NCBI GenBank assembly: GCA_031213475.1
Contig: JARUPZ010000013.1
Coordinates: 988,001 to 1,052,000, forward strand
Direction: 5' to 3'
Length of the DNA: 64,000 nucleotides
DNA from: Nereocystis luetkeana
Lineage: Eukaryota > Sar > Phaeophyceae > Laminariales > Laminariaceae
Below the pieces are notes generated by a model, which was not told the DNA's origin, did not search any database, and worked only from the letters and a program-made list of their open reading frames with translations. The position numbers and the translations under genes were made by a program. This document shows, one piece after another, positions 4,726 to 63,560 of the stretch (its first letter is position 1; every line of letters starts with the position of its first letter).

Positions 4726-5870
4726 GTAGATAGATGGTGACAAACAACCCCTCACTGCGGGAACTGTCCACTCTGGTATTATATTTCTGTCACACTTCTC
4801 TATTATTTGCTTCGTCAACCAACCGTCGACCACTACAATATACAAGCACAACAGTTACTTTTCGATTTTACACAAACAGGAAGACGATAGTAGTCCTTGT
4901 CGTCTATCTCATGACTTTATTATGCATACTGTAGGACGAACAATATGTTTTAACATCACTTCATCAGTGATAGCAACAGCAGCAGCAGCTCATTTCCTCA
5001 AAAAACTCCACCCGACATAATTTCGGGAGTACCGATGCCCGATTTAGGTGCCACTTTGAGCCATCACAGCAGCAGCAACGACTACAGTAAAAAATATTCG
5101 CAGTTAGAACCATCCTATACAAAAAGTCAATAGGTCAATCAATATTTATTTGTAAAATGAGAAGATTTCAACATGTTGTAAAGTCATGTTACCCTCCCTT
5201 ATCTGGGTTATATAGTATCAGTGCGCAGAATGAGTATGTATGCATATTGTCCTGTTGACCCGGGCAGCATCCAGGGGAGTCACTGGCCCATATCCTTGAC
5301 AAGGGGATACATATAGAATACGCGCGAACGGCTTATCATAAAATTTGTAAATTCAGTAGAAACGGGATATAGACGAGACATATTACGCAGCTTGCAAAGT
5401 TGAGTATCAACTATGTAATCAGTCGAACTCACAGCTGACATATTTCATCATTTTATAAAATAAATAGCAGGGTGTCTTGTCAGGTTGCGCAGATCATACT
5501 AAAGCTCGTCACGTTAAATCTGGTATCAACTTGCCTTTCACAAATGGACAATATGTCTACCTTTACGTGGTGTGGCTATTCCTTGCACATTCACTCGTGT
5601 TTCTTAGCGCAACGAACTGTGTATTTACGCGGTACCTGGTACCTAGTATACGCTTTCTTTGCTGTCTCCTGTGCGCCTGACGTCGAGTATCTGTTTCTTG
5701 GCATTGAAGCGGATTTTCGTGAACAATCCCAAAGCCTATTATGTGTAAGAACACCACGAAAACACATGCACCAGGTATTATTATAAAACTCCAGTTAGTT
5801 ACTTAGTAAGGGCATCCCTCCGACTTTGAGTTGAGGAGCCCGGTCAGTCATATAATAAGTACTGGTGTAT
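4726..5870. other. unique intergenic sequence
   Basis: No gene or repeat family recognised. A few short tri-nucleotide runs (CAG near 4975) and one TACCTGGTA word at 5633-5641 are the only notable items. ORFs of up to 104 codons at 5472-5786 show no recognisable domain. Confidence 0.5.
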
Positions 5871-6225
5871 GCCGGTCGCCCCGGTGGTTCAAGTGGTTAA
5901 CCTCGAATTATACTTGTTTGAGTCCTGGGTTCGAGCCCCAGGTGGGTCGGACTTTGACTTTATTTGCAAAAAAAATAAAAATAAAAAAGGATTCAATTGT
6001 TGAGAGCGCCTTGCAGCGTGGGTAGGCACAATTCGATGCGAGTCGACGAGGGAAGAAAAGGCTGAAATCTTGTCGCGATAAAAATGAAAGCACGTACCGT
6101 AGCGGGAAGGGGGGAGAAGAGCCTGCTATGTGACCCCGGATCCGAGTTACGAGTTGGAAGGAGAGAGAGAAGAAGATGTGCGAAGATAATGAATGGGATG
6201 AGCAAAAAAATAAATAAATAAAAAT
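5871..6225 (+). mobile_element. SINE-1, complete
   Basis: Complete copy. The tRNA-like head is at 5871-5952, with the GTGGTTCAAGTGG and GGTTCGAGCCCC boxes. The body starts at about 5999 and the tail is A-rich, with an (AAAT)n end at about 6203-6225. It is followed tail-to-tail by an inverted SINE-1 body. Confidence 0.9.
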
Positions 6226-6297
6226 ATCCTTTACTCCTCTCGTGTAGCAGGGGCGATGTGTCGATCTGCCACTACTATCTCGACTGTCATTGCTTAT

Positions 6298-6515
6298 ATT
6301 ATTATTTTTATTTTTATTTATTTTTTTGCTCACCCCATTCATTATCTTCGCACATCTTCTTCTCTCTCTCCTTCCCACTCGCAACTCAGATCCGGGGTCA
6401 CATAGCAGGCTCTTCTCCCCCCTTCCCGCTACGGTACGTGCCTTCATTTTTATCGCGAGAAGATTTCAGCCTTTTCTTCCCTCGTCGACTCGCATCGAAT
6501 TGTGCCTACCCACGC
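6298..6515 (-). mobile_element. SINE-1 body, inverted, truncated
   Basis: Minus-strand SINE-1 body from its T-rich (tail) side at about 6298 to GCCTACCCACGCTG at 6515, where LINE-A sequence begins abruptly. The head is absent. With the copy at 5871-6225 it forms inverted arms of about 200 bp around a spacer of roughly 70-100 bp. Confidence 0.85.
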
Positions 6516-6529: not shown

Positions 6530-7183
6530 CTGAAGGGCTTTCAAAAAATGATGACAGTCATCGTGACTGTCTTCGAAGCAGCAGGCCTCACGGTGTCGGA
6601 AAAGAAGACAGATACAATGGTCCTACAAACACCAGACCGGACAACCCTCGCACCACCGCTCGTCATCGAAGCGGCAGACCAGAGGAATAAGCAGACGACC
6701 CAGTTCTTACACATAGGCGGCGTTACCCACGAAAACGCTGCGCTCTCGCTCGAAATCGGCCGACGGATCCGCCTCATGCGAGCATACCTCTAACGGTTCG
6801 GCCCGGAGTTGTATGATAGGACGACCGCCCCCCTTAGCCTTCAAGTCCGAATGCTGACGGCCGAGATGATTGAGACCCTGCTGTACGGGTGTGTGACGTG
6901 GACCCTCAGAGCGGAACACTTTGCCAAGCTTCGAACGGCTCACCACCAAGTCCTGTTGCGAGTCATTGGCTTCCAGCGTCGACTTCTTACTGACCATGCC
7001 ACCCTCTCGTACGCGAAAGCCCTCAAGATGACACGTTGCGAGATCATCGAAACGACCATTCGTAAACGGCGGCTCTTCTTTGCGGGGGGCGTGGCACGGC
7101 AAAGCAAGGAGCGACTATCCCAGTCAGGTAATGTTCGGGACGGTAGCTGGTGGGGAGAACCCGAGACCAGGCGGACAGTGTAA
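6530..7183 (+). pseudogene. LINE-A RT fragment
   Basis: Begins at the KMMTVIVTVFEAAGL segment, which lies after the YADD box in copy 1. It continues through LLYGCVTWTL and RRLFFAGGVARQSK to the end of the thumb region. A single in-frame TAA at 6791-6793 interrupts an otherwise continuous frame where copy 1 has a sense codon. A one-base change near 6540 also shifts the frame at the truncated start. The fragment is dead but well preserved, so the insertion is probably fairly recent. Confidence 0.85.
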
Positions 7184-7564: not shown

Positions 7565-8473
7565 CAAGGCACCATGCCGACTAGGAAGTAGAACATGACC
7601 ATACTACTAGTGTTACCAACTGGTGCAGCTGGTTCGAACGTGGTCTTCCCTTGTCTTCTCTTCTTGTTTTTGTTTTTTTTCTTTGTTGCGCTGATTCTCC
7701 GTGATTTTCATATTTTTTTTTTCTCTTCCTTTTCTGATTGATAAGCCGTACTCAAGGAGCCGTGTGGCGTGGTTGGATGACGAACCTGCTCTGCTCGTTT
7801 CGTATTGTCTGACGCCAAGGGGCTGGGCATAGTTGACGAACGCAGGGCGGAGACGGCAGTCTGGGTAGCAAGGTGCCAGGCGGATTAGCAGGGAGAACCT
7901 GGCTATACTACTCGTACCACAAACTGCTGCCGCCACCTGGAAGGTGCTTTGGGCTTTGGTCTGCCTGTTATTTCCCCTTTGTTATTTTTCCTTGTTACTT
8001 TTTTCCTTGGTTCTTTGTCTTACTCTGTTCACAAGCAGTGGTGTTTTTTCTTATTTTTTTCATTTTTTGTTTCTTTCTTTTTTCCAGCTCGTTCTTTTTG
8101 AAGTGTTGGCCACCTCGCCTGCGGGAGGGGGGCACGGCAGATTGTTTCTCCCAGATTTTGCTTTCATTTTTTTTCTTTTTCTCTTTCGATTTGTCTACCT
8201 TGTTTTTGTTTTCTCTTTGATTGTTTCTTTTCGTTTCACTATTTCATAGATTGCGTATGTCGTGCCTGTCGTATCTAGTATGATGACATGGCTTTGCATT
8301 GCCCACTACAGTGCATACTGCACACGTGGCAACGTAGTATCTCTGTGGCGTAGCTTCGTGACCACAGAACTTGTATCTCTTCTAGGACTGAAGAATCGGC
8401 ACGGACACTGGTTGTGCTGGATGTCGACGGGTAGAAAGAACGGTTTAATGTGAAGAACACACAACACACACAC

Positions 8474-8739: not shown

Positions 8740-9950
8740 GTGGATACCGGTAGTACTGCTGCTATATGTTGTGCGGAAATCACTGCCACCCATCGTGAGA
8801 TTCGAGCTCCATCTACCTACTCTATTAACTGTTAATAGTAGCAATAGAGGGTAATTTATTATGTAAATACTACACCACTATTATTAAATTAATGTAATGT
8901 GGACCACACGGGGCCTTTGGATGGAAGGAGTGGGAACCAACGCCAACCATGATCGAAACCAACGATTATATTTCAGAGCAGTACCCAGATCGGGTATACT
9001 TAGATCCAACCCTGAAAAACAGTCGAATATTTGTGTGTGCTGGTGACATTAATCTACAGAGTCTTACGTCATCTACAGAAAATTCGAAAGGTGAATCGAA
9101 TCTTAGACTGAGAAGTACGGAGGTGTTGTATTTGTGCTATTTAAAAATAACAAAACTGAGAAGTACGGGGGTGTTGTACAGCGGTCGTCGTATCTGTAAT
9201 ATTTAATAATAACCATGTATTTTTCTTATTGCTTACCGGTACGTCGGCAGCGCAGTGTACATACCTGGTACTAAATATTTTGATTATATTATATACCTGG
9301 TACCTGGTATGGCGTTTCTGCTGAGATTGAGGCTGTTTGATACAGGACAGACCCACACCTACGATGATGCGATGGAGCTTGGATGCGGCTAAGGACGCAA
9401 GACAATAACGTAAATAGTGCATAATGAGATGGAGAAGGGAGCAAAGACAACACAAAGAGTATCGTAGATAAATCATAGAAGAGGGAAGTAGACATACCCT
9501 GGTAGAAGGTAGATATAGACCTTGTGCATTGGTTTCCTTTGTTTCCGGGGATTTTTTGTTTCTGGAATGTTTGGAGTGATCAGCGTTGACGCTGCACTTT
9601 GTCTGACGGCAAGCAAATAATAATAAGGCGTACCTGGTACCAGGTAGTGTTGTTATTGTTTGTGGTGGCTCAATAATTCTGGATTCACATTTCACAGGTA
9701 GACTTCTACCCTTACCGTGCAAAACTCAGTAAAATCCCAAGGATGATACAAACGACCACTCACTACCTGGTACGTCAGAAGCCCCGTTCTCGTCGCTCCT
9801 ACCTCTCACGGAAATCCTCCTACGCTTTATGAATCAGGCTAACCCGAACTCTGATGGTCCCGCTCCTATCTCTGCGAGGCTATCTAACACTCACCCCATA
9901 TGGCCAGCCTGACCACTCTATTCGTCTCCTCCATGCTATCACCGTTATTC
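8740..9950. other. intergenic, dense in TACCTGGTA words
   Basis: No supported gene. It holds six TACCTGGTA/TACCAGGTA words (9262, 9294, 9301, 9631, 9638, 9764). It also has a short imperfect duplication of ACTGAGAAGTACGG.GGTGTTGTA, about 50 bp apart near 9110 and 9158. A 193-codon minus-strand ORF (9141-9722) has biased composition and no domain. Confidence 0.5.
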
Positions 9951-10002
9951 TACGTTTTTTCGAGCGCAACAAAAACGGAGTTTGCTCCTTCCCCTGCCTC
10001 CC

Positions 10003-10879: not shown

Positions 10880-11264
10880 CCACGGCCCTTTACCGTGCGC
10901 TTTTCTTGCTTTCCCCCAGGCGTGCCACTTTGCTAGTTTTTGTGCGTACTCTTCGCGACTAAATCAAGCGCGGGCGTTTTAACCAATTCCGTCACCTCTT
11001 CCTTCTTTCCACCCTTGTTGCCCCCGGCTCCTGTGAGGCGCGTGCGCGCACGGTATGCATACCATGACTTCAGCGAGACAAGCATCATATATATATGGCG
11101 CGCGAGTGTTCTTCTGCGTCGTTCATCATGATGAGGTTCCATAGAATGCCGTCGTCTTTGCCAGGAACACAACATCGAAAATCTCCGAACCCCGCTGACC
11201 AATGGATTGTTCGTACCGTACGCTGGAGCGGGCTGGCTCCCTGACCTTGTCTGCCAGTATCACT

Positions 11265-11828: not shown

Positions 11829-11831
11829 GCG

Positions 11832-23660: not shown

Positions 23661-23945
23661 TAAGGCCGGGTTCAGTCCATTTTACCTTACTGTACGGTAG
23701 TTGGGAACTCTACATTTGCGCGGTATTTGGTGGGGTGGTTACGATAAACCACAGAAATGCCGATATTGCGCAGTAACTGTTTGAATGGAACGTGGCAACA
23801 TGATTTCCTCGGTAACGATTTGGATGGGAATGGGAAAACGTGATTCGCTTGGTAACGGCTTGGATGGGATTGGTAGTAGCGATTTATCACCGAAACGTAC
23901 CAGGTACCATTTACCGCGGCAAAATTTCCGAAGTGAATGAGCCCT
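23660..23945. repeat. degenerate GGATGGGA-type repeats
   Basis: Contains imperfect copies of GTAACGRYTTGGATGGGA (near 23812 and 23852) and GGAACGTGGCAACATGATTT-like words. It is non-coding, with one TACCAGGTA at 23898-23906. Confidence 0.4.
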
Positions 23946-24492: not shown

Positions 24493-24989
24493 CACTCGTA
24501 CTGCTGCTATTAATAGCTAGCTGTAGTTCAGTTTGCGCATTGATTTCATCTTTTTTTTGTACGCCTTCTTTGTCTCGTGTATTTTGTGAACACGGGCCCC
24601 TTCGTTTGAGAGTTCAACAACAACAGCAACAACAATAACAACAACAGAGTAGCTACTACCATACGTACCTGGTACCTGGTACGTCGTATCGTTGCTGCGT
24701 ACTATTCAAATACGTACTGCTGTGCATGATATTATTGCAGATTCATTTATTTATTATTATTTGCCTTCTGACAATGTGCAGGGCGTTATTCATCCATACG
24801 CGACCTTCGCGGTAAAATTCGTACCAGGTACTCTACGCTGCACATGAACATATACATGAAAAAAGCAGCTCTTTTCAGATTGAACCGTTATTTCTACTCG
24901 TCGTGCAACGGTATAGGACCAGCAGGATATCGCGCTGTAAACGCTCTACACAGCAGTTCTCCTCGTATCTCGAAATAATAGTGTGATAC
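24493..24989. other. intergenic with short repeats
   Basis: No gene. It contains a (CAA)n stretch near 24618-24650 and three TACCTGGTA/TACCAGGTA words (24666, 24673, 24822). CATACGCGACCTTCGCGGTA recurs near 25840. Confidence 0.45.
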
Positions 24990-26317: not shown

Positions 26318-26413
26318 ATGAAATATAGAATACGCAGCCCCAAAAATGACTTCATATACCTGGTAATCTTTTTGTTGTTCTAAATATTATAGGTGCTCTC
26401 CCAACAAAGATTA

Positions 26414-28975: not shown

Positions 28976-29329
28976 CACACGGGCGCCACTTTTTTATGGC
29001 CTGCACACGCACAACAAGTAAGTGTGAAGGTGTTACCTACTGAGCTACAGGGGTAAAAGATCGATCGATTACCCAGCCCAAGGTAATCCTTACCTGGTAT
29101 AACACAAGCTACTACCCCGATCTTGACAAGAGAGGGGCAGGACGTCATGAGCGGTGCCGGGACAATTGCCAGCGATGGCGTGCCGACGAGTGAATGAAGT
29201 CATTAACTTCGCGTATGATACAGTAGTAGTACTAAAAAAAGTGCAATCGTATAATTTCATACCAGGTACGAAACACTATGTATGTTGTTGCTGTGTACCG
29301 TACAAATACCGGGCAAAATGGTTTTTATT
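28976..29329. other. spacer
   Basis: No supported gene. It contains TACCTGGTA at 29091 and TACCAGGTA at 29260. Confidence 0.4.
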
Positions 29330-30848: not shown

Positions 30849-31340
30849 GTGAGTTCAAGCGCGCGCCATAGATATACATACCAGGTACATGATACGTCGT
30901 CTATCACACGGCCACCCCGAGTTCGACCGCGTTTGTTTGCTATTGACAATTTTGCAGTATAAAACAACAACTAGTTACTAGCTCCTCCTGTGAGATTGAG
31001 AACTCCGTCGAGACTCATATTTGCAAGCTGTGTGTGCCATTAACACTTCGTTCGCGCGCCACCTCTATCTACAGATCGAGTTTAGTTAGAAGTTTTTTTC
31101 TCAGATAGGCGTGTGTGGCCATACTTGGGTACTATCTACTGCCGCCTAGAGTCCTGTCTCGCTTTGTTGTGCGAAGTTTGCAACCCATTAATTTATTTCA
31201 ACACGACATATTGTTTATGAACCCTGTGTGTTTTACACCAGTTAGTTTGTGCTGGGGCGTTTTCGCGTGTCGTGAAAAAAGTATACAGTCAGTACTGACT
31301 GGTGTATCATGCCTCCGCGTGACTGCGTGACCGCCCAAGC

Positions 31341-31869: not shown

Positions 31870-32310
31870 AGTTTTATTTTGTCTAATTTTTTCTCTTTCG
31901 ATTCGTTTCTTTTGTTTTGATTTGTTTTTTTTCTTGTTGTCTCTTTCATGTATAATAGTGGTGTGTGTATTGTTGTGCCTGCCATATTCAGTATGATGCC
32001 ATGGCATTGCATTGTCTACTATTAATACTATGTGCTTACTGCACACGTAAACAAGTACCAGGTAGTATCTCTGTGGCGTATATTTTTGTGACCACATAAT
32101 AACGTTTATCTCTCTAGGATTGAAGAATCGGCACGGACACTGGTTGCTATTACGGGGGACCATAGTTAATAGGACCAAATATTGTTAGTAAAAATTGTTA
32201 AATATATATGTTTTTATAGATACCAGAGGTCCTGTTATCTATGGCCCCCCGTAATAGCTTGTACAATGTATGTGCTGAATGTCGACAGGTACGAAGATCG
32301 GTTTACAACA
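31870..32310 (+). mobile_element. LINE-A tail, carrying a MITE-T
   Basis: Diverged LINE-A untranslated tail from the T-rich stretch near 31870 through AAGAATCGGCACGGACACTG. It is interrupted at about 32147 by MITE-T and resumes near 32270 at TGCTGAATGTCGAC, ending near ACAACACACAG. It also contains TACCAGGTA at 32056, where other copies have GGCAACGT. Confidence 0.7.
32148..32256. mobile_element. MITE-T inside LINE-A tail
   Basis: Ends TATTACGGGGGACC and GGCCCCCCGTAATA, with interior AGGACCAAATATTGTTAG. The host LINE tail continues after a few unaligned bases. Confidence 0.8.
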
Positions 32311-32760: not shown

Positions 32761-33551
32761 CGTACTCGTACGAGCGGCTGTTGTAGTACTCAAACTGCAC
32801 TACTTACTTCTTCAATGTTGTCGTGAAGCCATATTGCCACACACATATATATATGTACATGCAATAGCCTCAAACGCTATTATACCAGGTACCGGTATTG
32901 TTTTTTTTCAAACGCAACCAAAGTCCTAGCCAAAACTGCTTCCTTCTGAAGAGGGCGAAGAGAAGAGTCGGGAGTCGGGAACGTCTCGTAGAAGACCATC
33001 CGGGAATATTACACACATATAATATGATGTCATGTTATTTCTCACAATACCCACCTGGTGGTTTATACCTGTGGCACCAGGTACCTGGTAAAGGATACCA
33101 GGTGTTTGTGTACGTACTTGCATCATAAAAATGTATACCAGGTATAATACTCTTCTTACAGCTCTGTGCCACATGCAGCACTCGTTCGTGTGCGGTAGAA
33201 CAACGGTGATGGCTGCGGCCGACTGTTTTTTGAGTCGTTTAAAGTGGCGCATGGCAGGCAGGAAGAAGCCGAGCAACCCACGCACTTCCGTATGAACAGA
33301 GTAAATCGCATGTGGTTCAGCAGGGGTCCCCCACAGTATTATTGTGAGTTAAAGGCTGGTTAAAGGCGGTGCGTCAGCGAGACCAGCGTTACCACCTTAT
33401 ATATATATTGGGGATATAAAAAGCCGCCTTTATTTATTCCAGGTCATGGGTCATGAGCGAGCGCAATTCCTTCCTCGTGCCAGACGTTTTTTTTTCGCCT
33501 TGTGACATGTCTCATGTCGGGGTATACCGCCTACCGGTATCTCAAACCTTT
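32761..33551. other. intergenic with TACCAGGTA words
   Basis: No gene. The words occur at 32883, 33082 and 33136. A short ACC[AT]GGT-rich patch lies at 33047-33110. Confidence 0.4.
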
Positions 33552-33684
33552 TATTACTGGGGGCCATAGTAAATTATAATATAGGACCAAAGACTGTTCT
33601 GTTGGTAAAAAGAGGTTAATTAATACCTGGTATGTAGGTTTTTGTCTCTACCGTAAGTCCTATTTACCATGGTCCCCCGTAATA
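33552..33684. mobile_element. MITE-T, diverged
   Basis: Ends TATTACTGGGGGCCATAG and ATGGTCCCCCGTAATA. The interior has GAGGTTAATTAATACCTGGT where other copies read GGTTAAATATAT, so TACCTGGTA at 33624-33632 is extra here. Confidence 0.75.
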
Positions 33685-35115: not shown

Positions 35116-36035
35116 TAGTTTCATACCAGGTATGTGGTAGGAGTAGTAGACTGGGTGTGCATGTGCGTAGTGTGTAGTCGCCCGCCTACATAACATATAC
35201 CAGGGTACCTGGTACCAGGTACGTACAAGTCGCCTCAGAACCCGAAGGGTCTGCACACATATTGCGTTTTATATTGCGTCCCGTATTATTTTATGTAGTG
35301 CTCTACACGTGGTACCATTTTCAAATTTTGTTGCAAAAATTACAAAGCACCTGGGCCACAGAGGAACTAGCTTGTTTTATTTATGATGTGTGCTACTACT
35401 TACTGCTGTTGGTATAATATTTTGCGGTATACTACAACAGGGCGGCAAGTATATAGTAATGATCGCATGGCATTTTAGTAAAATAACAGGTACCTGGTTG
35501 CTCGTATGATATATACCTGGTACTACCTATATACCTGGTACTTTTTGTACCAGGCATGGCGTTTAGTATATATGCGGTGTCGGAGGTCTAATTCATTATA
35601 CCAGGTATACACAATGAATATTGATATAGTGTAGGCCATGGAGGTACACACAACATATATATACATGTAGCATAAAAAGGACGGGCGCTTGCTTGATCAA
35701 TGAATTATTTTTTAACGTCGTCGTGATATCCTAGATAACAACGAGTATTTACAACAATATTTTATTATAGTCGGCGCCGGATTCATACGTGCCTATTATG
35801 GGAAGGCCTTAAAACTCGAAAATGTATTGTACTTTTCGATTGCTTTATTTATTAGGGTTGCAGTTTTTTTTTCACACGCACGCCCACGCATCGATCAATT
35901 ATGTTTCTTTCGGATGAAAGCACAGGAAGTCTCTAACTGTCACTTAGAAATCAATAACGATTGCGTTTTCCTATCTATCCTATCTATCCTACTTATGATA
36001 TGATACGATACGATACAACAACAGGTGGGTTCGCA
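35116..36035. other. intergenic, dense in TACCTGGTA words
   Basis: No gene. The words occur at 35124, 35206, 35213, 35514, 35532 and 35599, the densest cluster in the window. AT-rich otherwise. Confidence 0.45.
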
Positions 36036-36757: not shown

Positions 36758-37323
36758 TTAATTATCACTTTTTACTTTCCAGCCTAACTCGTAGGAGGTT
36801 TTACCCTCAAAGAGCTTCTGGACAAGCGGTGGTCACAAGTGAATGTGTATGTCGTGCCTGTCGTATCTAGCTAGTGTGATGACATGGCATTGCATTGCCA
36901 ACTAACTGCTTGCTTTGCTTACTGCATACATACCTGGTACGTGGCAACGTGGTATATCTGTGGCGTAGCTTTGTGACCACAGAACTTGTATCTCTCCTAG
37001 GTTGAAGAATCATCACGGTCATTGATTGGTTGTGCTGGATGTTGACGGGTAGAAAGGACGGTTTATTAATGTGAAGAACACACACACCCTTCTCCCCTCC
37101 GGTACGTGCCTTTATTTTTTGTCCCGCATAGGGTTCAGCATTCCCACCGCTCGTCGATTTTCATCGAAAGTAGCTAACTCGCGCTCTCGCGCTTTCCGCT
37201 GGCCAATCAATTTTTACGTAAGAAATAAACCCTACGAGCTTGCACTATTATTAGGAGGTGAGACTGACCACGGAATTGATCTTGATAGGCACGCGGACCA
37301 CTTATCGAGCCACCGGGGACGCC
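36758..37323 (-). mobile_element. SINE-2, inverted, split by LINE-A tail
   Basis: The tail part is 36758-36837 (CTTTTTACTTTCCAGCC to GTGGTCACAAGTG). The body and head are 37088-37323 (CTCCCCTCCGGTACGTGCC to GAGCCACCGGGGACGCC). The alignment with 26005-26317 is continuous when the middle is left out. Confidence 0.8.
36838..37087 (+). mobile_element. LINE-A tail inserted in SINE-2
   Basis: AATGTGTATGTCGTGCCTGT through GTGAAGAACACACACAC: the last 250 bp of LINE-A. It contains TACCTGGTA at 36931-36939, absent from sister copies at this position. Confidence 0.8.
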
Positions 37324-39173
37324 GTCAATACGTTTTATGGCTAGCAGAATAACGCCCGATACGCCAATCAACGACCAGGTGCATACCCGAAAACAGGATA
37401 ACAAATACCAGGTATATTTTTTCGTCTCACGGATGAGACCAACTCTTTACCAACAAGAAGAGAGCAGAGAAATGTCAGCGGGCAGAACAAACGACATGAT
37501 GGAACCATCCATCTGAAGCATGTGGGACCCCTTTACCTCCCTACGTGCCCACCATCTATATCTATCTCTCAATGTCGATATATAGGAGGGAAGAGAGAGG
37601 AGAGTACATCGTGAGTCCTGTGCTTTCATGTGCTTTATTTTCTGGTGTACAGCACAGTATACTATATCAATACTCTTGGACTGTCGTAACATCGAATATC
37701 ATAGTGTTTTATGATGCGACTGACTGCGCGATGGCCAGTATTATAGATACTACTACTGATGCAATCCGGTACACTGATCGCTGACGCAGTCAGCAAAACA
37801 TCTACTGAATTGACGCAGCCAGTACCCCGTTCTGTGAGACGTGCGATGTTGTGGTCAGTCTCGATTCCGAATGTCTTGGTATTCTAGTGCGGCCATGTAT
37901 GTGCTGTATCTTGATACGGCCAGTAGTGTCCGATGTGTTGTATCACGGAAGTTGTTGGAACTATCGCCATGATGACAAGATGCTCCTCGAGGTCGTCGGG
38001 CACTCGGACACTGTCAATCCTGAAGATTGCCGGTGCTGAGAGCGCGATATGTCACCGGTGGGTTTTGTTGTGTAGATATTCCGTGGATGCATGAACACTT
38101 CAACACGACCCAAAGTAAGCATCAAACATTCATTTAAATTTTGTCGTCGAAAGCAAAGGAAAAGCGTTCGAACTTGGTGCACGCGCGGCCATTACTCTCA
38201 CGTACGTGCACAAGTATTCATAAAACATATATTTTGTATGTAGTGCAGATCATCCCAATTTGCCCGATGATTCCAATGCCAATTGGAAGGACGGTTACAG
38301 GAACGTAGTTACCTTTCTTGGCATCCTCGCTAATCATTCTATTTTCTCTCGCATAATGGGATGGTCGATTTATTCCAGCTGCAAAACTAGCCGATGCATC
38401 AGACTTATCATCGCCCCCAAGATTTTTTGGGAAAACGGCATTTAACCCGCAAGGGTGGTTTGTTTATTTTTTGTCGTCCCCCGCATAATATCGCAACGCG
38501 AATCCCCAGTTTTTTTTATACGAGTGTTACCCAACACTAAAAGAACATGCGACGGTTTAAAACCCGGCATCCCAGGTCACATTGTCATTTAAACCCTCCA
38601 TCGAATTTCGCCGATCGTTGTTCTTCGCGCCTCGTTAACCTCCCCCGACCCCCACCACAGGGGCATGCATGCAGGACTCTCGCAGTCGACGAGTCGCTTC
38701 GAAGAGCGCTCATACGCAAAGGGATTTTTCGCAAACACCAAGAGCAGGAACAGCTTCACCAGGGTTTCGGCCTCCGACGATGACTCTGAGTGAGCACATA
38801 CAATTGGGTGCACGGTACATCTGCGGAACGGTGTACATTCCTGTGTTTAGCCTGTTGCGATGGTTTGTCCTGCAGCAGTTGTTCGATGTTGCCTCGCCCA
38901 TTAAAAAAAATATGGGCGATATTTGTCAAAATGGCACGTCGGTGTCTAGTTAGGTGTAAGTTTACCATCAAAATCACCTTCTCTTCTCGGCATTCAACTC
39001 ACTAAAAGTTGTATTAATAGTATGCCTATATCTGCCCCTTCAGATTTTGCTCCTCCTCACAAACAAACGGGTTTTATTTCTTGCATGATGTCATTGAGGC
39101 CAGATATAACTCGTTCGTGGTACGCGCGATCGAAGTTTCACACATTTCCTGCAAAGAAAGGTGAGTTTCCACC
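37324..39173. other. intergenic, no supported gene
   Basis: Several ORFs of 60-95 codons exist on both strands (for example 38547-38783 +), but none has a recognised domain and frames overlap heavily. A TACCAGGTA word lies at 37406. I could not support a gene. Confidence 0.4.
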
Positions 39174-40197: not shown

Positions 40198-40238
40198 TCG
40201 GCGGCGAGAGAACAGTTTTTCGAGTTTCGTGTAACCAG

Positions 40239-43200
40239 CGGCCCACAACGTGTGTTTGGCAACAACACCAGTGCGCAGGCGGAGCTCAAAGTGGACCTTG
40301 ACTCCGAGGAATTTTCCTGTCAAAACGCCTTCTTCTTCGCCAAGATGTGCGAATTCGCTTACTCCAGCAGAGAAGAAGTGAAGACTATTTTTCAGGGCAA
40401 CGAGACCGTGACTGGTCTGGGTTTCGAGCACTTCAAGTGGTTCGAGGTGGGCATCAACATTAACATAGTCGCAGTTAGTTATGTTTGTGAAGCCTGTTCC
40501 TACTGGCACGATCACCATATATATCATGTGCGTGAGAACGATAAATAAATGACGTACTAGTAATTATTACTACCGAAACCTGCCCCTGGGTCGAAAACCT
40601 CAATATTCACGCAAGTGGAAGCCACATATTACAAATGTCGATTGTCCGCATGAGTAATGCACCATACATTACTATGTGTCGCTTTTCAGTTGCATGTAAT
40701 TCCTTGAGCCGTATGGCCCGTTGCATCGTAATTCGGAGACCAGTCTGTAGACCTCCTTAATATTGCAGTGGCCGTTGCTGTAATGGTCACTTTTTTAACA
40801 CCAATTATCCCCCCTGAAGTCCCAAGCCGGTCAATGGTGCTTTTGTACGAAGTACGTATTCTTTCAGTATTAATGACAAACTCGCCTGTATTTCGTATCT
40901 GCACACAATTAGAGGTCCGCTCGGTGCGGTATATCTGAATATTGCCCCTCGGGACAACCTCTCGTTTCTCGGTACCCCTGTCCGGCATGTCCTGCTTCGT
41001 AAAGGCTCCCAAGAAGGCGTCGGAGAGGTCAATTTTCGATGCCGTCGAGGACACTGAAGCTTTCGTCGCGGCTGACGACGACGTGGTTATGGCCGTCTTC
41101 CGCGGTACCATGGAGCTAACAGACTGGACCACCAACCTCGACTTCCTGCCGACAAGGGTTGCGGAGTCGTGGGGCCTGACGGGAGAAGGCTGCGACGTAC
41201 ACGAGGTGGGAAACTACTTGCCTGCCCCAATTTTTACACACGGATAAAGTCTACGTCTCTTCGGTCTGTTTGTACGGAGTGGCCGCGAAAGCAGTGACGA
41301 GGAGCGTCAAAGCGGGTGTCGAAAGCGCCCGTGGGCCGGGCTCTCAACCTGGCAACCTGTTTGCAGCTCCATAGTTACGTTGCTACTAGTAGTGAGCAGC
41401 TTCGACAGTGAGAGGAGGGCGGCGGTAAATTTTAATGCCGAGAAGAGAATAATGGACCTCCAGCTTGCGCTGCAGCTACCGCGACGGAGTTGTTGGGTAC
41501 TACAACAATGATTGCGGACTACAGACCGATTTGGATTGACATGGCACATATATATATGTGGAAGTCTATTGACCAGTAAAATAGTTTTCTGTCCATCCGG
41601 CGAGGGGTAGCAAATATACAAACAAACGCGTGGTATATATATGGTTGCTCCGAACGTTGGATAATGTATGTCGCGTGTTGGCGCGGCGTGTAAGACAATT
41701 AATTGTTGCTTGAAAACGGCGGACCCATGTTCTGCTCTCCGCGTTTTCTCCTGGGACAAACCGGCGGCAGGGTTTCAATGATGGCGTGAATACGGTGTGG
41801 GACGGTGACAACGGCATGTTCGCAACAATCAAAGCGCTCTGCGAGGAAGAGGGCAAAAACCGGAAGCTGTACGTCTCGGGGCACTCGCTCGGAGGCGCCC
41901 TCGCTACTGTCGCCGGAGCCCGACTGGCCTTCGAACACGACATGAAGATCGCCGGAATGTACACTATCGGCAGCCCAAGGTACTACTGCTGTGTGAGGTC
42001 GGCAAGTAGACATGACATATCCAAGGGTATGGACTAACTATGTGCTGTTCGCAGACTCCATGGGTCCCGATGTCACACTTCTCGGCCTCTCCTTTCCCTC
42101 CACACTACTCGACGTTTCCCCGTTGACAAACCTTCCGTTCGCTTGATCAAGGCGATTCGTTTACGTCGTATGGTATTTTGCTTCGCTCCGGTGATACGTC
42201 CGCGTTCTGAAGGGTTGCCAAAGTCCTGGTCGATTATTTTGAACGTCCCCACCCGACGCTAATACACTCTGCCGTTGCCGGCCTAACTTCCCGCGCCCTC
42301 TCCTCAGCTACAACGTTCGTAAGATGAATATGATAACACTTCGATCTTTTCAAACCACCCCCCGTGAAATTCCTCCAACAGGGTGTTTGACGGACAGATG
42401 TCGGAGATTTTCGACAACAAGATAAACCACGGCACCGCCCTCAAGGACAAGTACTTCCGGTGCAGGAACAACAACGACATCGTGCCGCGCATGATGCCTC
42501 CCCCGTTCGAGCACGTCGGTACCGAGATCTACCTTAACCGATTGTGAGAAAGACGACCTTACTCTGTTCACTATTAGTATATACTGTGGTGATCCCACTA
42601 TGGTGTCGCTTGAATAGTGCCGGCTGCCCGCTGCTATAGTGCAGATAAAATCGTTCGGCACATACATGACATTGTGGGTTCGACCAGCGTGGCAATGTGC
42701 GGAGTAGTGCCGGTTTGTCGATAATATATATAGTGTCTGTAGCGTTGGCTGTGCCATACCGGCACTATAGATTGCTACTGTAGTCATATTGGTCCTATTA
42801 TACCGGGATTTATTAACTGTGGGAAGTACCGCGATAACCGGAAGCTGTTCGCTCGACGCTCGCGCCTGTTCCACCCGCGACCGACGGTCGAACGTAGGCA
42901 CACACACGGCGAAGGAGGCAATGTTTCTCCTAAATAAAGACAAACCCCACCTATGATATTTCGTTCTTGCCGGGACGCATGATATATGCGCGAGGGGTGT
43001 ACTTGTTATTTTAGGCTCGTTGTTTGAGGAGCTCTTAGGTCTCACTAAACATCTGGCGTAAAAGCAAGCGTGCACACGGACATGCACACCTAGCTTAACC
43101 CGACGAAAAATAAACACGATGGCAAGGAAGGGTCTGTAACGACAAACAATGATGGCGAGGTCCTCAGTTGAGAAACCCAAATCAGTCAGAAATATTCCGT

Positions 43201-43945
43201 ACAATAAGGCAAACAAGGGCTATCCCTGTCGTATAAAGCGTCTGCCTCGCCTTGCCGCCGCGATACGTCATAACGATGATGAAGTGAAGGGGTCGCCCGA
43301 TGCTCTGTATGCAATAATTGTGTCACGTCGCTCAACAGACGTTGTCTATCCGCGTTTCGCTCAATAGCCACTACCAAATTCTACTAGCAACTGTAGGAAC
43401 GCAAACGAACTCGTATAAGGTATATATATATGATGTCGACACAACACACTCGGGCCGCCTCCACGGGCCCTCTAGACTGTCACCGCATCGGTGCGGAAGG
43501 GTTCCGACTGCACGTGACTCTCCACGTTGTCTCTACGTGTATGTTGCATGTGCCTTGCTACGCTCCGTGCTTGACCGATGACCTTAGCACGAAAATATGT
43601 ACCAGGTATATTACTGCTCTCGTTGACGTTTATAGCCCGGGTGTGCAGAGGAACGGCTGTTTAATTTCCTGGTCAGCTACTTTCTGAAACACCCTTCGCA
43701 CCCACTGATCCCCTCTCATTGCATAGCTGTACGTCGAATCATCCTGACGGTATGACTCCACCATGACCCGTTCGTTATCCATCTCCAGCGGAGCCATCAA
43801 GCCTACAAGCATTTGGGACCGCCTTGCGGGCCGCTACGACTCGTACATCAAGCTCCATTTCGGAGAGGACGTCGACGACCACATGTCGTCCGAGTACATC
43901 AGGATTTTCGAACAGTTGGTGATCGATGAGCACGCTGGCAAATAA
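40239..43945 (+). CDS. class 3 lipase gene, five exons seen, 5' end missing
   Basis: Exons: about 40239-40446, 41005-41205, 41771-41979, 42382-42543 and 43789-43945. Every intron is GT-AG and the reading phase is kept across each join. The protein is a triacylglycerol/ester hydrolase of the Lipase_3 family. It has the N-terminal FSCQNAFFFAKMCEFAY, then DTEAFVAADDDVVMAVFRGT with DWTTNLDF. The Ser nucleophile is in VSGHSLGGALA and the Asp in NNNDIVPR. The C-terminal DDHMSSEYIRIFEQL is the likely His site, before TAA at 43943-43945. About 310 residues are visible, and family members are usually about this size or a little longer. The 40239 start is a probable splice acceptor (CCAG|CGG). The frame is open to 40198 but has no ATG. 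Intron 4 (1245 bp) is the longest. All active-site residues are present, so the gene is probably functional. Whether it is secreted is unknown. Confidence 0.88.
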
Positions 43946-45024
43946 TGCGGCGCTTAATAAGGTGATTCATTTTTTCGAGCATAGACGCGCGCGCTACTCT
44001 ATACCATAATATATATATATATACCTGGTAGGGCATAACTTTCAAAACAATGAAGACTATTCTATGCCTCACTGAGGAAGTACCCAATAATGCACGCCTC
44101 TTCCTCGTTGGAACACCTTTTTCGTTTTACCCCATTCGTCGTTGTATTCCTACGCCGTGGGTTTTTTCGTGGGGTTGCACCTTCATTTTTCTCAGAGTCG
44201 ATGCGTGCTACAGTTATTCATAATAGATATGCAATATTGTTTTTCTGAGATTATGATATTCACTTACTTGAGGAGCTCTATACCATTGCGTAGTCATCAG
44301 TAAATAACCCAAAAACCGACTCAACCCTTGTAGAACCGCAGTCGTTTTTTGGGGGCGAATCCATCTGATTCCACGTAGTTTGTCCCCAAAACGGGACTGC
44401 GGTCCTGAAGGAGTTAAAACACAGAAGTTAAAGTGCAACCCGAAGGATGATTCTCAAGGCCTTGGTTCAAAAACAATGTAATTTTGCGAAACAAGAATAT
44501 TGACATTATTCCGACGATTTTGAGTTAGGGGGGCCCGCCCTGTCATTCAGTCAACATAGTTTACCCAAACTGTGCTTTATCTATCGTAGCGCGCGTCAGT
44601 CAGTCTTTGGTGGACAGATAGGAGTCAGTATTTGGTGGACAGATAAGAGCGCTCAAGCGGGGAGCCTCTGAGAAACAGTGATGTAGCATGCCTCCAACAA
44701 TAGTTGTTTCGTTGATCGAAGGCAGGGGATTAATTTGATCACAACCGCTTATGTAATATGTATTGCTCGTTGCCATCGTCGACGTTTGATGGAGGCCTCA
44801 GCCCGATAGGTGTTGGCTTGACTTGACCGTCATTCGATCAGGATATATATACTTACTTGACGAAATTGACAGAATTGCTGTATTATTGCTGTAAGCCCGG
44901 GGTATTTGCAGATGGCGTCCGTCCAGGCCTCGAACAACAGCGATAGACGAGACCTTACGACTGCGAGATAGCTACTCGTAGGGTAACAGTAGTGTTTGGG
45001 TTCCGACTATGCATTTGGGAGAGC
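43946..45024. other. downstream of lipase, no gene seen
   Basis: Contains TACCTGGTA at 44032, MITE-P copy 2 at 44321-44417 and a short tandem TTTGGTGGACAGATA repeat near 44608-44645. No supported ORF. Confidence 0.45.
44321..44417. mobile_element. MITE-P copy 2
   Basis: TCAACCCTTGTAGAACCGCA at the left and GGACTGCGGTCCTGAAGGAG, then TTAA, at the right. TTAA is kept on one side only (44414-44417). The flank to about 44520 also resembles the flank of copy 3 (ATTATTCCGACGATTTTG here against GTTATTCCGACGATTTTG there), so the repeat may be longer than the palindrome. Confidence 0.6.
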
Positions 45025-45463: not shown

Positions 45464-47589
45464 CTAAGGGCTGATTTGCTCTGGCCGAGGCGTCAGGACC
45501 TTTGAGGCGTGAATTGGGGGGGAAAAAACATCAATCGAGGATGCCTTATTTTTAGAGTAGAACCGAGGCGTCAATCAATGACACCTTCAAAATAGTAGAG
45601 GCGACATAATATACGAGTACCAAGTATCCAAACCGACATTTTATGGATCGGCTGCATGAATACGTCGTGTGTGGTGCATAATATATGGTATCATAGGCAT
45701 GTAGAGGAATCGGCGCGTGGTGGGCAGTGCTGAACGTCGCGGTACCGCCATTGACTAGGAGCGTTGAAGTAGCACGGCTGACGCACGTGGGTCAAGTGGC
45801 CGTCGCGTGGGAGACACGTGGGCAGTTTTCTTCTAGGTGCATGTAAAGTAAGTTTCGGAAGTGCACCTCCTAGGGTGTCGTAGCTCGCAGTAAGTAGTGC
45901 CCAAGGGGTTTGGGAGGTACACCGTTAAACACAGGATGAGGTATTGGTCCAATGGTCTCCATTGCTCAAGTTGAGAATAGCGTAGGGGGGGGCGGGTTCT
46001 GGACTAATCCAGACGGGGGATCACGATTTACGACTGCCCAGACCTCCCTTGAGGAGTGTGTCGAGTAACACGGCTGGCTACACAAAACGAATATCATTGG
46101 TACTGTTTCATGCCTAGAATGCAAGCACGGCGAAGCTCGGGCACTGTTACTTCCTGCAGTTAGGTCACACAACACTATTGATCGTGATGACATATGTATG
46201 TGTGCCCAACACTTCTGTCCGTCTCTGCCTGCCCCATTGCTCTGCGAAACAAGAAACAATCCCTGCACGAGCCCGGTTCAACACTCCCACTCAAACATGG
46301 GGAGAGATGGTTCCCGCTTACTACCATCACCGCGTCGCGTCGGCCGTGCCTTTAACGCCAACTAACTGATCGTTGGCTCATATCCTCTTTCTCAATGTAA
46401 GCCTCCATGTATACGTATATATTCAAAACGTTCGATCACACCCCACGGGTTTACATCTGCACCGGCGCTTTAGGGGGTATACTACTTGTGATCGAGTGGA
46501 ACATGTCTGTTTGAGCACTCGGCAGAACGGCCACGAAAACAACAAAAAAAGGGGCCATAGTTCAGATTCGTTAGAGTTCTTTCGTACATAGCGGGGGAAA
46601 TTCGTATGGGTCCCCGGGTTTGGCTATCACTTGCCATCGCGTCCCGCAATGACCCATTTTCAATCTCCGCACGATGAACTGCGGTAACTCCCCATCTTTA
46701 CTCCAAGGGGGCGCACGTACGTGGATGCTCAGAACTGTCCCAAATGTTCAGGCCCCCTTTTCTCTCACGGGTTTCTCGTATTTCACCAGCCTGCCGCGTC
46801 CTTCAAGATGCAGAACGGGTGCAGACGAAGATTGAATTTCCACTTGTCGTAATTCCCCAGTTATATGTCGGGCATCCACCCTATTGCCCGGAGTGGTACG
46901 GTGGACTGATCGTACATTGGCAGGCAGTGCCACTTGAGGCGTAGGTTTACCAGAGACGCGCACCCGTGGATCTCGGCAACAAACCCGCCTTGCTCGCCTA
47001 CAGTTTCCCCAAGGTACACAAAAGTCGCGGATTGTTCAAAACTGGCCGGCTGCCTCGACTAGAAAAGTCGCCCTGCCCTCTCCGAACATTGCGTCATCAA
47101 AACCATCCAATTCAGTCGAAACAAAGCGAACGCTCAGAGGCATACATAAGCACCACGATGGCATACCCACTAGGCCCTTTGTCGATATATATGTCTACCC
47201 TTTTCACGGTGTCTGTGTGTCCCCCGGGTTGGTTGCAGCTCCGTGGTTTCCTGGGGTTTATGTCGACCTCTGCCGGTCGCCTTTTTGCTTATTTGCCGTC
47301 TCCTGCTCATTTCACTCGACGCACACCATATATATCCTTCACCACATCTGCAATGGCACCGAACCACTCCATCGGCTTGCATACGATAGTGCCGCACTAA
47401 ATAGTACCAGGTATGTTGAACAAGACTGGCGGGAGAGCCTATCCTTGCCGTAGGCCTCCTCCAAGCCAACCCAACCCCGATTTATTAGCGTCCTCAAACC
47501 CGTGAGCCTAGCATCCTGCCGTTGGGTCGGCAGGGGTTGTACAGACCCCCCAACTACTGTCATGGCGCTGCCGCGGGCTTTCAGGGCAC
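45464..47589. other. intergenic, no supported gene
   Basis: ORFs of up to 144 codons (46966-47400 +) have no domain. The frame ending WYGGLIVHWQAVPLEA near 46944 looks partly protein-like but has no clear splice partners. A TACCAGGTA word lies at 47405. Confidence 0.4.
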
Positions 47590-59987: not shown

Positions 59988-60176
59988 TGTTGTTGTTGTT
60001 GTTGTTGTTGTTGTTCTCACATTAACTCTCTGACGAAGGAGTCCGTGGTCACACAAAGGTGCTGGAGCCCTAGGAAGATCCGAAAAAAACAAAAAAAAAT
60101 CGAAAATTCGGCTCCCTCAAAATACACGAGACGAAGAAATCGCACACGAGATAAAACCAATGTGCAAACTGTACTA
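59988..60176 (-). mobile_element. C element, longest uninterrupted copy
   Basis: (TTG)n at 59988-60015, CTCACATTAACTCTCTGACG, GGTGCTGGAGCCCTAGGAAG, an A-rich stretch, CAAAATACACGAGACG and CCAATGTGCAAACTGTAC. It matches 25217-25385. It abuts repeat E at about 60180. Confidence 0.75.
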
Positions 60177-60194
60177 ACATGGCCACGGGTATAT

Positions 60195-60625
60195 CCTCGC
60201 AACTAAAACATAGAGTTACCCCCGTTCCCACCACTAACCAACTCGTGGCTGCTGACTACAGCGGATGCTGTCTGAAGTGCTGCCTGCACCGTACGAAACG
60301 CACGGTAGTCGTGAAAACGAAAGAGGAACACATATATCTGCCTGCTATCTGGAGTGCTGTCAGAGTGAAGACTCGCGGATATGCAGTGAAAAAAGGAGCA
60401 ATCGAACCTTACTACCACACGAATATCAACGATCGCCATCTCTTCCTGGACTGCCTGACACAAAAAGGTGCAGCACAGTAGTTATGATACCACTTCCCTG
60501 ATAATTGCGTAGGTTATTCCCCATGAAGGGTATACAACTCGTTACACTACAAATACCAGTGACGATAACAAGTACCGGTAGATACTATTCTGCCTCGTGA
60601 AAAACAATACCAGGAAAAAACAAAC
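60195..60625 (+). repeat. repeat E copy 2
   Basis: Same repeat as 23950-24395, here on the plus strand. The 100-codon frame 60179-60481 shares TNQLVAA and SGCCL..CLHRTKRTVV with the other copy, but later indels differ. Homology runs to TGCCTCGTGAAAAACAATAC near 60610. Confidence 0.65.
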
Positions 60626-63560
60626 TATAACTGCTTCTCTCGTGATGACAGTGTGCGCGCAGATCATGGGTCTCCCTGCACCGTCTTCCTGCCGCTCTTC
60701 ATGGCCGCCTCATCGCCTTGGCCCAATCCGCCCGCTCCTTTGCGCGTGTACGCGTTGCCATTCCCTTCCAGTCGATTCCCTTTCTCCGTCATCCTGAAAA
60801 ACAAAATGCTCCTCGCACTTGCGGTTCTGATCTGAAAAATAAAAATTCTCGCGCAGGGGGAGGTCAATCCGTCTCTTCCCCGCACGTCGACGCTCAGTCT
60901 CCCTCCTCCCTCGTCGTCGAATCCAGCCTCCTACCGGCGTAATAGACTGTGCCGTAGTGTGGCCTGTGATGGCGCCTGCCTCCGCGCATGGACACCCCGA
61001 TTGAGCGTTGCTGCTCTGCCGCAGCTGCCTAAAAAGACGCGCGAATCGTAGGTCTCCGTGCCTGGCGCACCACGTACGACCCAACTCTACTGCCGCCTGA
61101 GCCTCGCGGCCACAGGCAGCAGCAAGAAGGTATCACTCCTTGAGGGTGAGTCCGGCCTGACACCCGCCAGAAAGACCTACCCCACTCGCTATTAGCCTGA
61201 TAGGGCATGCCTCGCAGCATTCCTTGCCGAGGCAGCGAGGGGAACGGAGGTACTAGCCACACGTCGTCGGTGAAATTATCAAAGAGAAACTTCGGGGTGG
61301 GAAGATATAGGGTGTTCTTCTTGCGGGCATGATTGATTGAGTCTGCGGGCTAACCCCCACCGTTTTCGGTGGTCCTCAGACAATACCGCAACCGTTGCTC
61401 AAATAGTTCAATATCCGAAGCTGGTTGTCATCACCCGACATGTGCCTCACCTGTCCCTGTCCGGTGGGCCAAGCATTGGTGTCTATTAATGGGAAAGTCA
61501 TGGTCACAATTATGTCTTCTTGACGTTGGTTTTCGCGTAAAATTCCCTTCTGCCTTGTGGTTGATTCCGTCGTGAAGCGCGTGCGGCCCGTGCGGGGCTC
61601 TCGTGTGGCAGGGCTGGACGACAGTGGAGAGATCAATCACTTTTCGGGAAAACGTCGAGCGTGTGCCACTGTTGTTCTAGAACATCCAAACCTACACATG
61701 AGACTAAAATGCCGTTGTCTGCCGACACTATATATATCAGGAAAACGTGACAAAACGTGTTGCAGGCAGCGTAGCACACTACTACGGCATTGTTACCGCG
61801 TGTCACTGCGTGCACATCCGCTGTGTCACTGTTAATAGGTCGACTTCCGCGCTACCTGGTACGGAATGGGTGTTATTCCACCATTCCCAGTGCGATGTAC
61901 CTCTGGGAGTTGTAACAGGGGAGTGTGGCGCGTTCGGCGTATTTCGGTGGCGATGTTGGGTAGAAAGGGCCGAGGGGGGTGACGGTGGAGGGGTGTAATC
62001 AGGGCATGCTTGGCCGTAGTTGTATGGCCATTGACCCTTGTTTCCCTACAGTGTCAGGACGGAGCACGTTAGATTTTCACCGACCTGGCAGACATTGCTA
62101 GCACCAAACGGGAATCGCCGAAAGGTGTCGGGCGAGTCGCATGAAGGGCGAGATGCTCTCTACGAGGAACCACTTTGAGACGGGATTACTTGCACTATGT
62201 TGGCGGGGGGGGGGGTGAGCGGGGGTGAGTAGGGGGAGGGGGGGGGTCTGGCATAGAAGAAATGAACCTGGAAAGTAGCTCGCGGAGTGTTTACACACGG
62301 TTCTGGAGACTCCAAAGTAGCACTCTCCCCTTGTTTCGCAGGCGAAAAGCCTTGTCGTGGTTGATTAGAGTCACCGTCATTTCCAGAGGGGAGGGATCAT
62401 GCCAAAGTATTTAGCTCGGGGGAGGCGACGGGAGCGGGCGGAGGGGGGGGGGGGGGGGGGGGGGGTCGTGCCAAGAGCTCAAACGTTTGAGAGGCTTGCC
62501 ATTGTGCGGTCGACGACCAAACCGGTCGTGTTGTGGTGAGACCCCCGCCGTCGATATAGGCTAGAGCAGCGTGCCTGCGGCGGCATAGCGCAAGTGCTGC
62601 TGGTGTAGATCACAGCACGACGAATATAGGGCGTGGGTATTAGATGAGGGAGGATATATACATCACCAACTGAGTTGTATACCTGGAATATTCATATCAG
62701 ATCGATCCCCGCGGCCCGGACGCCCAATATTCAACTCGGTAGATTTCCGCGACTTCACAAATTGAAGCGCGCGTTGCGTGGTAGCCCATGCCCCACAAAA
62801 ACAGGTCTTAAACCAGTGGAGCTCTGCTCCCGGCTGAGTGCCGCTGTGCCTGGCTATTAAAAGAAGAGGATATCGTAGGTAGAAAAACACGGACCATGTG
62901 GATAGGCTATCCAAGTCCAAGTCCAAGACCGCGAGTGCACTAACGCCTCCTCAACCTGTGTTATGCACGGATACCAGATATGTTCCGCCGACTTTATGCT
63001 TGCACCTCCTTCTCCGGGACCGTGTATTGACGTCTACGTGCAACCGGGCGCACACACACAAACTTTTCGAATATCGGCGTGGGGGGGGGCGTTAGAAGCT
63101 TATAGCTCCTAAAGGGATTGCAGCTATAAAGCCCTCAAATCCGCATGCGGCACACCAAGCATGGGACGTGGGGTTGTGGTGGTTGGTAAGTAAACCATGG
63201 AGGCGATGGAAATCGAAGGAACTCAAAAGGATGATAGCGTTACGACTGTTACCTCGCATTGGGAAGACCTCGCACATAGGGGTGAACACCGAAAGACCCG
63301 GCTCGGACAACGAGGTTGAAGGGAAAAGGGAAGGAGTGCGGGCATGGGCGGGTAAGCCGGTGGGGTGTGTCAACTCGTGATAAACAATGAACATTGCTTT
63401 GATATACTTGCAGTAGGGCTTCGTGATACATGCTTCAATCACTCCGCATGTGGCATGCTTTGGACACTAGTACGTACGTACGCATGCTACGATAAGAGTG
63501 CACCTTACGTGTCCTCAGGCTCTTCGCCTGACCGTAAGGAGCGCTGCACCTCACGCACAA
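60626..63560. other. intergenic, no supported gene
   Basis: GC-rich ORFs (for example 60710-61084 minus, 124 codons) show no domain. It includes the inverted partner (61157-61236) of the repeat at 23585, one TACCTGGTA at 61853, G-rich tracts near 62201-62247 and a 23-base G run at about 62443-62465. Confidence 0.4.
62443..62465 (+). repeat. poly-G run
   Basis: About 23 consecutive G. It could form a G-quadruplex, or its length could be an assembly or sequencing estimate. Confidence 0.8.

Follow-up and report, generated by a model that had tools for sequence, protein, structure and literature searches.

TACCWGGTA in the kelp Nereocystis luetkeana: a probable excision scar of a TA-targeting DNA transposon

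Sleeping Beauty duplicates the TA at which it inserts and, on excision, leaves the bases of its 3′ overhangs behind (PMC7827188, PMC8151067), with a footprint that equals the overhang (PMC7827188; this and the other papers are cited for the sections available to us). Reported footprints measure 2–4 bp for Tc1/mariner elements and 0–3 bp for ZB (PMC7913693), and 0–4 bp for Passer, a cut-and-paste element that inserts at TA within the palindromic consensus AAGTACTT (PMC9976928). In the brown alga Ectocarpus, 17 Mariner-Tc1 families account for nearly 12,000 copies, most of which are non-autonomous (PMC12477816), and in rice, 8 of 94 excisions are perfect, the remainder carrying deletions, filler, or both (PMC4423477). 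Here, we describe a nine-base word, TACCWGGTA (W, A or T), that recurs throughout a 64,000-nucleotide stretch of Nereocystis luetkeana (GenBank assembly GCA_031213475.1, contig JARUPZ010000013.1, positions 988,001 to 1,052,000 of the forward strand; hereafter the window) and across the assembly. We read it, with a probability of roughly 0.8, as the canonical scar that a cut-and-paste DNA transposon with TA as its insertion site leaves on excision, and refer to its copies as scars for brevity.

The kelp word appears to work like a Tc1/mariner-type footprint, with a TA target and end bases left behind. It resembles the Sleeping Beauty footprint in the duplicated TA and in the overhang bases that would stay at the site, and differs from it in size: Sleeping Beauty leaves three bases and has a known element and transposase, whereas five bases are seen here. 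No comparable scar abundance is described for Sleeping Beauty in the available sections of PMC7827188 and PMC8151067. Passer shares the cut-and-paste use of TA and the palindromic target, but unlike the footprints of Tc1/mariner elements, ZB, and Passer, the dominant kelp scar has 5 bp and is very uniform. The main text of the Ectocarpus account does not use the term "footprint", and its available sections describe no CCWGG scar (PMC12477816). The rice study likewise offers a genome-scale view of natural excision sites, in contrast to which one clean scar recurs genome-wide here (PMC4423477); because perfect excisions are so few in rice, a single clean scar at such a scale is unusual. A literature search of largely open-access journals, bioRxiv preprints aside, found no report of such scars; the nine-base string itself turns up in 109 papers, and the 20 of these that were listed seem unrelated.

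Abundance and decay of TACCWGGTA

The window holds 33 exact copies of TACCWGGTA, 18 of them TACCTGGTA and 15 TACCAGGTA. Dinucleotide shuffles of the window contain 0.31 copies on average and 2 at most, and each single-mismatch version of the word occurs 0–2 times in the window. Across the 465,085,209-bp assembly, the word is found at 182,395 places (about one per 2.5 kb) versus 1,744 for its reversed form, which makes it a genome-wide feature. These counts bear out an earlier reading of the window from sequence alone, which had claimed strong over-representation of a word that is palindromic apart from its central base. That base is W. The copies overlap themselves in 7-bp steps, as the sequence-only reading had observed, and they do not all fall into one alignable repeat family. 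Its 32 coordinates are exact in 31 cases; 44032 should read 44022, and the copy at 4101 was overlooked. The genome counts may be slightly inflated by duplicated small contigs, because two stretches, one from a small contig (L044, C809) and one from a large contig (L045, C2), share 3,701 bp at 100% identity.

Further analyses use a sample of 280,830 bp, which combines the window with 20 stretches of 10 kb and with deduplicated motif loci from the genome search; the extra loci were chosen by the presence of the motif, and L-numbers denote sampled stretches. In 2-kb bins of this sample, scar density drops with rising GC (Spearman −0.34), which fits TA targeting; exon context is seen in one gene only. 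No copy lies between 9773 and 23897 of the window, as previously noted, and a second gap at 47414–61852 is equally long, so the first gap is not peculiar to the stretch that had been labeled DIRS and copia. Poisson expectations, GC-binned from the sample that includes the window itself, give chances of zero copies of 0.011 and 0.006, respectively, for 14,000 bp of each gap. A Pfam scan of 19 distinct window open reading frames, 8 of them within 9773–23897, matches 0 families and neither confirms nor disproves the DIRS and copia labels.

Genome-wide, TACCSGGTA (S, C or G) occurs 10,882 times (control 1,899) versus 182,395 for the W-centered word; the excess of about 9,000 over the control, some 5% of the W count, would fit ordinary decay of the central base. 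Among one-mismatch copies in the sample, centre excluded, 73 fall in 8 transition words and 60 in 16 transversion words, compared with a mean of 1.68 copies per shuffled word. This transition enrichment resembles neutral decay, and the one-mismatch spectrum of the sample shows no sign of constraint on TACCWGGTA.

Insertion at TA, target preference, and a proposed excision mechanism

Evidence for insertion comes from empty sites. Each scar was cut down to one TA, and the sample, which covers 0.06% of the genome, was searched for a gapless match over the join at no less than 75% identity. A clean empty site, whose join holds a single TA, is found for 13 of 110 merged motif loci with enough flank versus 7 of 895 other TAN5TA words used as controls (Fisher p = 6.7e-9). 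Four of the seven positive controls are shifted views of motif loci, and another is a one-mismatch copy, TACGAGGTA. In a second control set away from the motifs, 3 of 972 loci have an empty site, and one of these is the very TACGAGGTA copy just mentioned. The collapsed sites lose exactly 7 or 14 bp to leave a single TA. The insertions at these 13 of 110 loci thus leave a TA on either side and an intact flank, which is the TA duplication expected of the IS630-Tc1-mariner group. The evidence favors TA-CCWGG-TA, inserted at TA, as the unit and does not support CCWGG (methylation) in that role.

The best pairs of scar-bearing and empty copies are at L011:518 (95/99 identities), L011:3233 (113/117), and L013:8366 (71/74), and the scar at L017:7979 has its empty counterpart within the window (Table 1). 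In L016, a repeated unit carries a scar at the same TA three times, once as a 14-bp double scar. The scar-bearing copy at L011:518 looks derived: of the empty copy's relatives in the genome, 40 were scored, and with spans of 219–223 bp (query 221 bp) none of them has the 7 extra bases. These are the best 40 of 637 candidates, a choice that favors empty copies. Two repeat copies in the window exceed their siblings at 8249, 32673, and 1420 in length at the motif, by 7 bp around 32056 and by 11 bp around 36931; divergence of its left flank keeps the 32056 copy from passing the strict empty-site filter. Among 175 insertions surveyed between aligned repeats, the commonest 7-bp insertion is the ACCAGGT rotation (5 of 15).

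With the scar removed, 97 non-tandem sites show a dyad-symmetric base bias around TA at positions −1 to −7 relative to all TA sites, with left–right correlations of 0.58 to 1.00. T is avoided at −1; C is preferred at −2, A at −3, −5, and −6, and A or T at −7. The strongest positions are −7 (p = 2.5e-16) and −6 (p = 1.3e-11), and nothing is significant at −8 to −12. Such a palindromic target preference around TA characterizes the IS630-Tc1-mariner group and suggests the trace expected of an integrating dimer. The end of the bias at 7 bp also speaks against a common repeat next to the scar, in keeping with the earlier observation that the flanks differ and the copies do not derive from one alignable repeat.

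These properties, for which the sequence-only reading proposed no mechanism, can be accommodated by a single series of steps. Insertion at a TA dinucleotide would duplicate the TA. On excision, the transposase would cut so that each flank keeps the element's five terminal bases as a 3′ overhang (CCAGG and CCTGG); the two overhangs are complementary save at the centre and could be annealed directly by end joining. Repair of the central A·A or T·T mismatch to CCAGG or CCTGG would then yield TA-CCWGG-TA, which exceeds the original site by 7 bp. A W centre is expected from this scheme because the CCAGG overhang pairs with its partner at four positions and mismatches (A/A or T/T) at the centre. The scar would in turn offer two TA sites, 7 bp apart, that suit the transposase's target preference, so that re-use could build up 7-bp tandems, and scars would afterwards decay neutrally. 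A variant with a 3-nt stagger, in which two CCA overhangs meet in a one-base overlap and give the same word, is ranked lower because it needs a mismatch at the sole contact.

Tandem scars are in excess in both data sets. Genome-wide, there are 15,917 double scars versus 2 copies of the reversed form, and 13 double scars are found in the sample versus about 1 predicted from random TA choice. Re-use of scars is expected because the preferences at −7 (A or T) and −6 (A) make a scar a good new target, and it is probably the chief source of the tandems. An 11-bp insertion, TACATACCTGGTA, at 36927–36939 of the window is read as a compound scar, TA-CA-TA-CCTGG-TA. Such 11-bp compound insertions (TACATACCTGGTA and TACCAGGTACGTA) are also observed at L011:3954 and L011:5819 and resemble a 2-nt scar placed next to a 5-nt one.

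Transposon activity is usually judged from the copies that remain, excisions being normally near-invisible. With a self-complementary overhang, each clean excision would be recognizable from a single exact word, which amounts to about 180,000 marks here. Scar counts could then be used to date repeats, to set excision against copy number, to show end-joining fidelity, and to chart target choice. The odds seem about even for a fuller version of this account, in which a TA-specific transposase with an unusual 5-nt stagger, beyond the reported 2–4 bp footprint range, made on the order of 10^5 excisions in one brown-algal lineage, end joining almost always gave the same repair, and datable scars far outnumber resident copies. 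If true, this would be a ghost transposon, known from its scars alone.

Source element, rival explanations, and related scars

Several observations weigh against an excision origin of the word, and many of them concern the missing source. No intact element with CCWGG ends is found in the sample of about 0.28 Mb, nor does comparing its CCWGG pairs for matching inverted ends over 20 bases give anything convincing. Although 22 of 720 candidate end pairs pass the empty-site filter, all represent the scar's own flank or neighboring repeat units. Since intact ends would be expected as TACCWGG without a following TA, such half-sites were examined (102 in 264 kb). None of their inner hexamers occurs more than twice, and pairs that agree also share their outer flank; half-site pairs with a common inner sequence are therefore rejected as repeats. 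The one such pair in L010 belongs to a candidate, L010:9156-9489, that has a 20/20 inverted end match and was rejected as part of a larger repeat with its boundary about 170 bp away, after genome-wide follow-up in which 10 of 41 listed matches were aligned. Among large TA-flanked insertions between repeat copies, the only clean element is the TTACGGGGG miniature inverted-repeat transposable element (MITE) described below. At the protein level, DDE_3 (PF13358) gives 0 matches among 30 candidates scored in six frames without introns. DDE_1 (PF03184, pogo/Tigger) has 28 matches in the genome, some with internal stops; the six inspected (L041–L045) show no CCWGG-ended inverted repeats, one inverted repeat, in L043, extending to the edge of the stretch with its ends out of view. 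Intact copies may be scarce, the element may have been lost, or its ends may be unlike those expected. As a separate observation, L041 and L042 hold long DDE_1-matching open frames with no flanking inverted repeats of at least 12 bp in the stretches seen, and these are possibly transposase-derived host genes.

The empty-site results also have their shortfalls: 97 of 110 motif loci lack a clean empty site, 70 of 110 lack any paralogous flank in the sample, and two loci (L011:8186 and L020:8821), left uncounted, match gaplessly but without a TA at the join. Scar-bearing siblings exist in the sample for 14 of the 110 loci, showing that scars are copied along with repeats; because of this copying, independent events number fewer than 182,395. 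The 5-bp scar lies outside the 2–4 bp reported for Tc1/mariner footprints in the available sections of PMC7913693. For this reason, and because neither an element nor a transposase is seen, we do not file it in the Tc1/mariner superfamily, although the putative enzyme would be Tc1/mariner-like. Finally, among 59 distinct tandems (a hand count of those listed first, on one contig), 40 have the same W base and 19 are mixed, and 12 from another listing divide into 6 and 6. Because the 40/19 excess exceeds the prediction for independent events, some tandems may be plain 7-bp duplications.

This same-W excess is what would be expected if the word arose through short templated or end-joining insertions, such as a polymerase or telomerase-like activity adding CCWGGTA at breaks, or through 7-bp slippage. 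The lack of a source element favors this explanation as well, as does a tandem array in L031–L040 that varies from two to three units among 10 aligned copies of one repeat. However, it leaves unexplained why the insertions sit at TA without flank loss and why the target preference is dyad-symmetric and ends at 7 bp, which suggests a symmetric integrating complex; slippage alone, moreover, cannot make mixed-W tandems. We consider this origin improbable. Removal of only 7 or 14 bp collapses the sites to a single TA, and the absence of base preference past 7 bp on either side leaves no shared terminal inverted repeat. Both results largely refute the proposal that the copies mark the termini of numerous and diverse small inverted-repeat elements, with a TA duplication and terminal inverted repeats starting CCTGGTA. 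The L010 candidate resembles such an element in its inverted ends, but its relatives place the word inside the larger repeat, and this proposal is very unlikely.

A conserved functional site under selection, whether a transcription factor, replication, or methylation motif, could account for the sharpness of the word, its few variants, and the tie between its density and base composition. It is hard to reconcile with copies that arose by insertion wherever their origin is visible, that decay with a neutral-like excess of transitions, that lack flank preference past 7 bp, and that are as numerous as one per 2.5 kb, and we give it very little credence. Internal eliminated sequences of ciliates have TA boundaries, and programmed DNA elimination by a domesticated TA-specific transposase could produce the TA boundaries and uniform junctions seen here, with no intact copy in the sample. 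Yet the scars have been duplicated with repeats and have decayed, so they are heritable rather than remade in each generation, which makes this explanation barely credible. Excision of a transposon remains our preferred source of the word.

The survey of TA-flanked insertions also yields TAAATA, TAGATA, TACAGTA, and TATTAATA. TAAATA and TAGATA insertions recur in aligned repeats, and TACAGTA is inserted at TA in repeats at L019:2417, L020:3527, and L025:270. Clean empty sites are found for 6 of 59 TATTAATA loci and 4 of 87 TACWGTA loci. We take TACWGTA to be the word that a Sleeping Beauty-like 3-bp footprint, CAG, would produce; the odd-length, nearly self-complementary overhang of Sleeping Beauty would presumably give a W centre through its central mismatch (TA-CWG-TA). 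TATTAATA, which occurs 59 times in 281 kb, is the putative scar of an abundant MITE of about 107–110 bp, TTACGGGGGACCATAGTTAATAGGACC...CCCCCGTAA (TTACGGGGG...CCCCCGTAA between the TAs; e.g., L016:7645-7753), whose end bases would be TT and AA. In this case, the element is visible beside its putative scar; relatives lie near 4492–4726 of the window, and a scan of viral contigs for the MITE gives 0 matches. The TATTAATA and TACWGTA scars suggest a general way of reading extinct transposons from what they leave behind. TACCGGTA (19 copies), a candidate scar one base shorter, is rejected, with an empty site in 0 of 17 tested loci. In the spacing scan, TAC/TAA microsatellites dominate spacings 1, 4, 7, and 10 (more than 160 sites each), so only non-repetitive words were used there.

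Positions in the window and neighboring features

Table 1. Copies of TACCWGGTA (scars, as read here), related repeat copies, and the lipase gene in the window.
Feature	Position	Strand	Basis or remark
Scar TACCAGGTA	4101..4109		exact search; missed by the sequence-only reading
Scar TACCTGGTA	5633..5641		exact search
Scar TACCTGGTA	9262..9270		exact search; TACA directly before, possible compound scar
Tandem scar TACCTGGTACCTGGTA	9294..9309		two motif copies, 9294 and 9301
Tandem scar TACCTGGTACCAGGTA	9631..9646		9631 and 9638, W bases differ
Scar TACCTGGTA	9764..9772		exact search
Scar TACCAGGTA	23898..23906		exact search
Tandem scar TACCTGGTACCTGGTA	24666..24681		24666 and 24673
Scar TACCAGGTA	24822..24830		exact search
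Scar TACCTGGTA	26357..26365		exact search
Scar TACCTGGTA	29091..29099		exact search
Scar TACCAGGTA	29260..29268		exact search
Scar TACCAGGTA	30879..30887		exact search
Scar TACCAGGTA	32056..32064		within repeat copy 31964-32146
Scar TACCAGGTA	32883..32891		exact search
Scar TACCTGGTA	33082..33090		exact search
Scar TACCAGGTA	33136..33144		exact search
Scar TACCTGGTA	33624..33632		diverged repeat copy; 12-bp gap in sole alignment, uninformative
Scar TACCAGGTA	35124..35132		exact search
Tandem scar TACCTGGTACCAGGTA	35206..35221		35206 and 35213
Scar TACCTGGTA	35514..35522		exact search
Scar TACCTGGTA	35532..35540		exact search
Scar TACCAGGTA	35599..35607		exact search
11-bp insertion TACATACCTGGTA	36927..36939		compared with sibling repeat copies; contains the motif at 36931
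Scar TACCAGGTA	37406..37414		exact search
Scar TACCAGGTA	43600..43608		intron, between last two matched lipase exons
Scar TACCTGGTA	44022..44030		86 bp beyond end of last lipase match
Scar TACCAGGTA	47405..47413		exact search
Scar TACCTGGTA	61853..61861		exact search
Scar-free sibling of repeat copies 31964-32146 and 36841-37088	8249..8463	+	alignment
Further scar-free siblings of the 8249..8463 repeat	32457-32673 and 1202-1420	-, -	alignment
Scar-free (empty-site) copy matching scar-bearing L017:7979	5253..5370	-	110/121 identities
Class-3 lipase gene, multi-exon	40216..43936	+	tblastn matches of P0002

The class-3 lipase gene is outlined by tblastn matches of P0002 at 40216–40449, 41002–41202, 41753–41986, 42374–42568, and 43790–43936, with a weak extra match at 38671–38790 (E 0.003). 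Its best protein matches are from Undaria (68% identity) and Laminaria digitata (64%), followed by Scytosiphon and Ectocarpus; the source label of the top match, Undpi1, is taken to mean Undaria pinnatifida. These matches point to a brown-algal genome in or near the kelps, in agreement with the source of the assembly. Searches of the window for tRNA genes and Rfam families find neither.

An open frame at 2824–3456 on the minus strand, with a YADD motif at 3193–3204, is retroelement-like by eye and is adjoined by inverted arms at 2503–3156 and 6545–7134 with 96% identity. Elsewhere in the sample, kilobase-long imperfect palindromes are found at L012:33-2379, L010:8702-9974, and L016:6970-9308. 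The window also contains an array of TTAGGGGATCCC units of about 20 bp at 51343–51579 and a 120-bp tandem repeat at 63559–63997.

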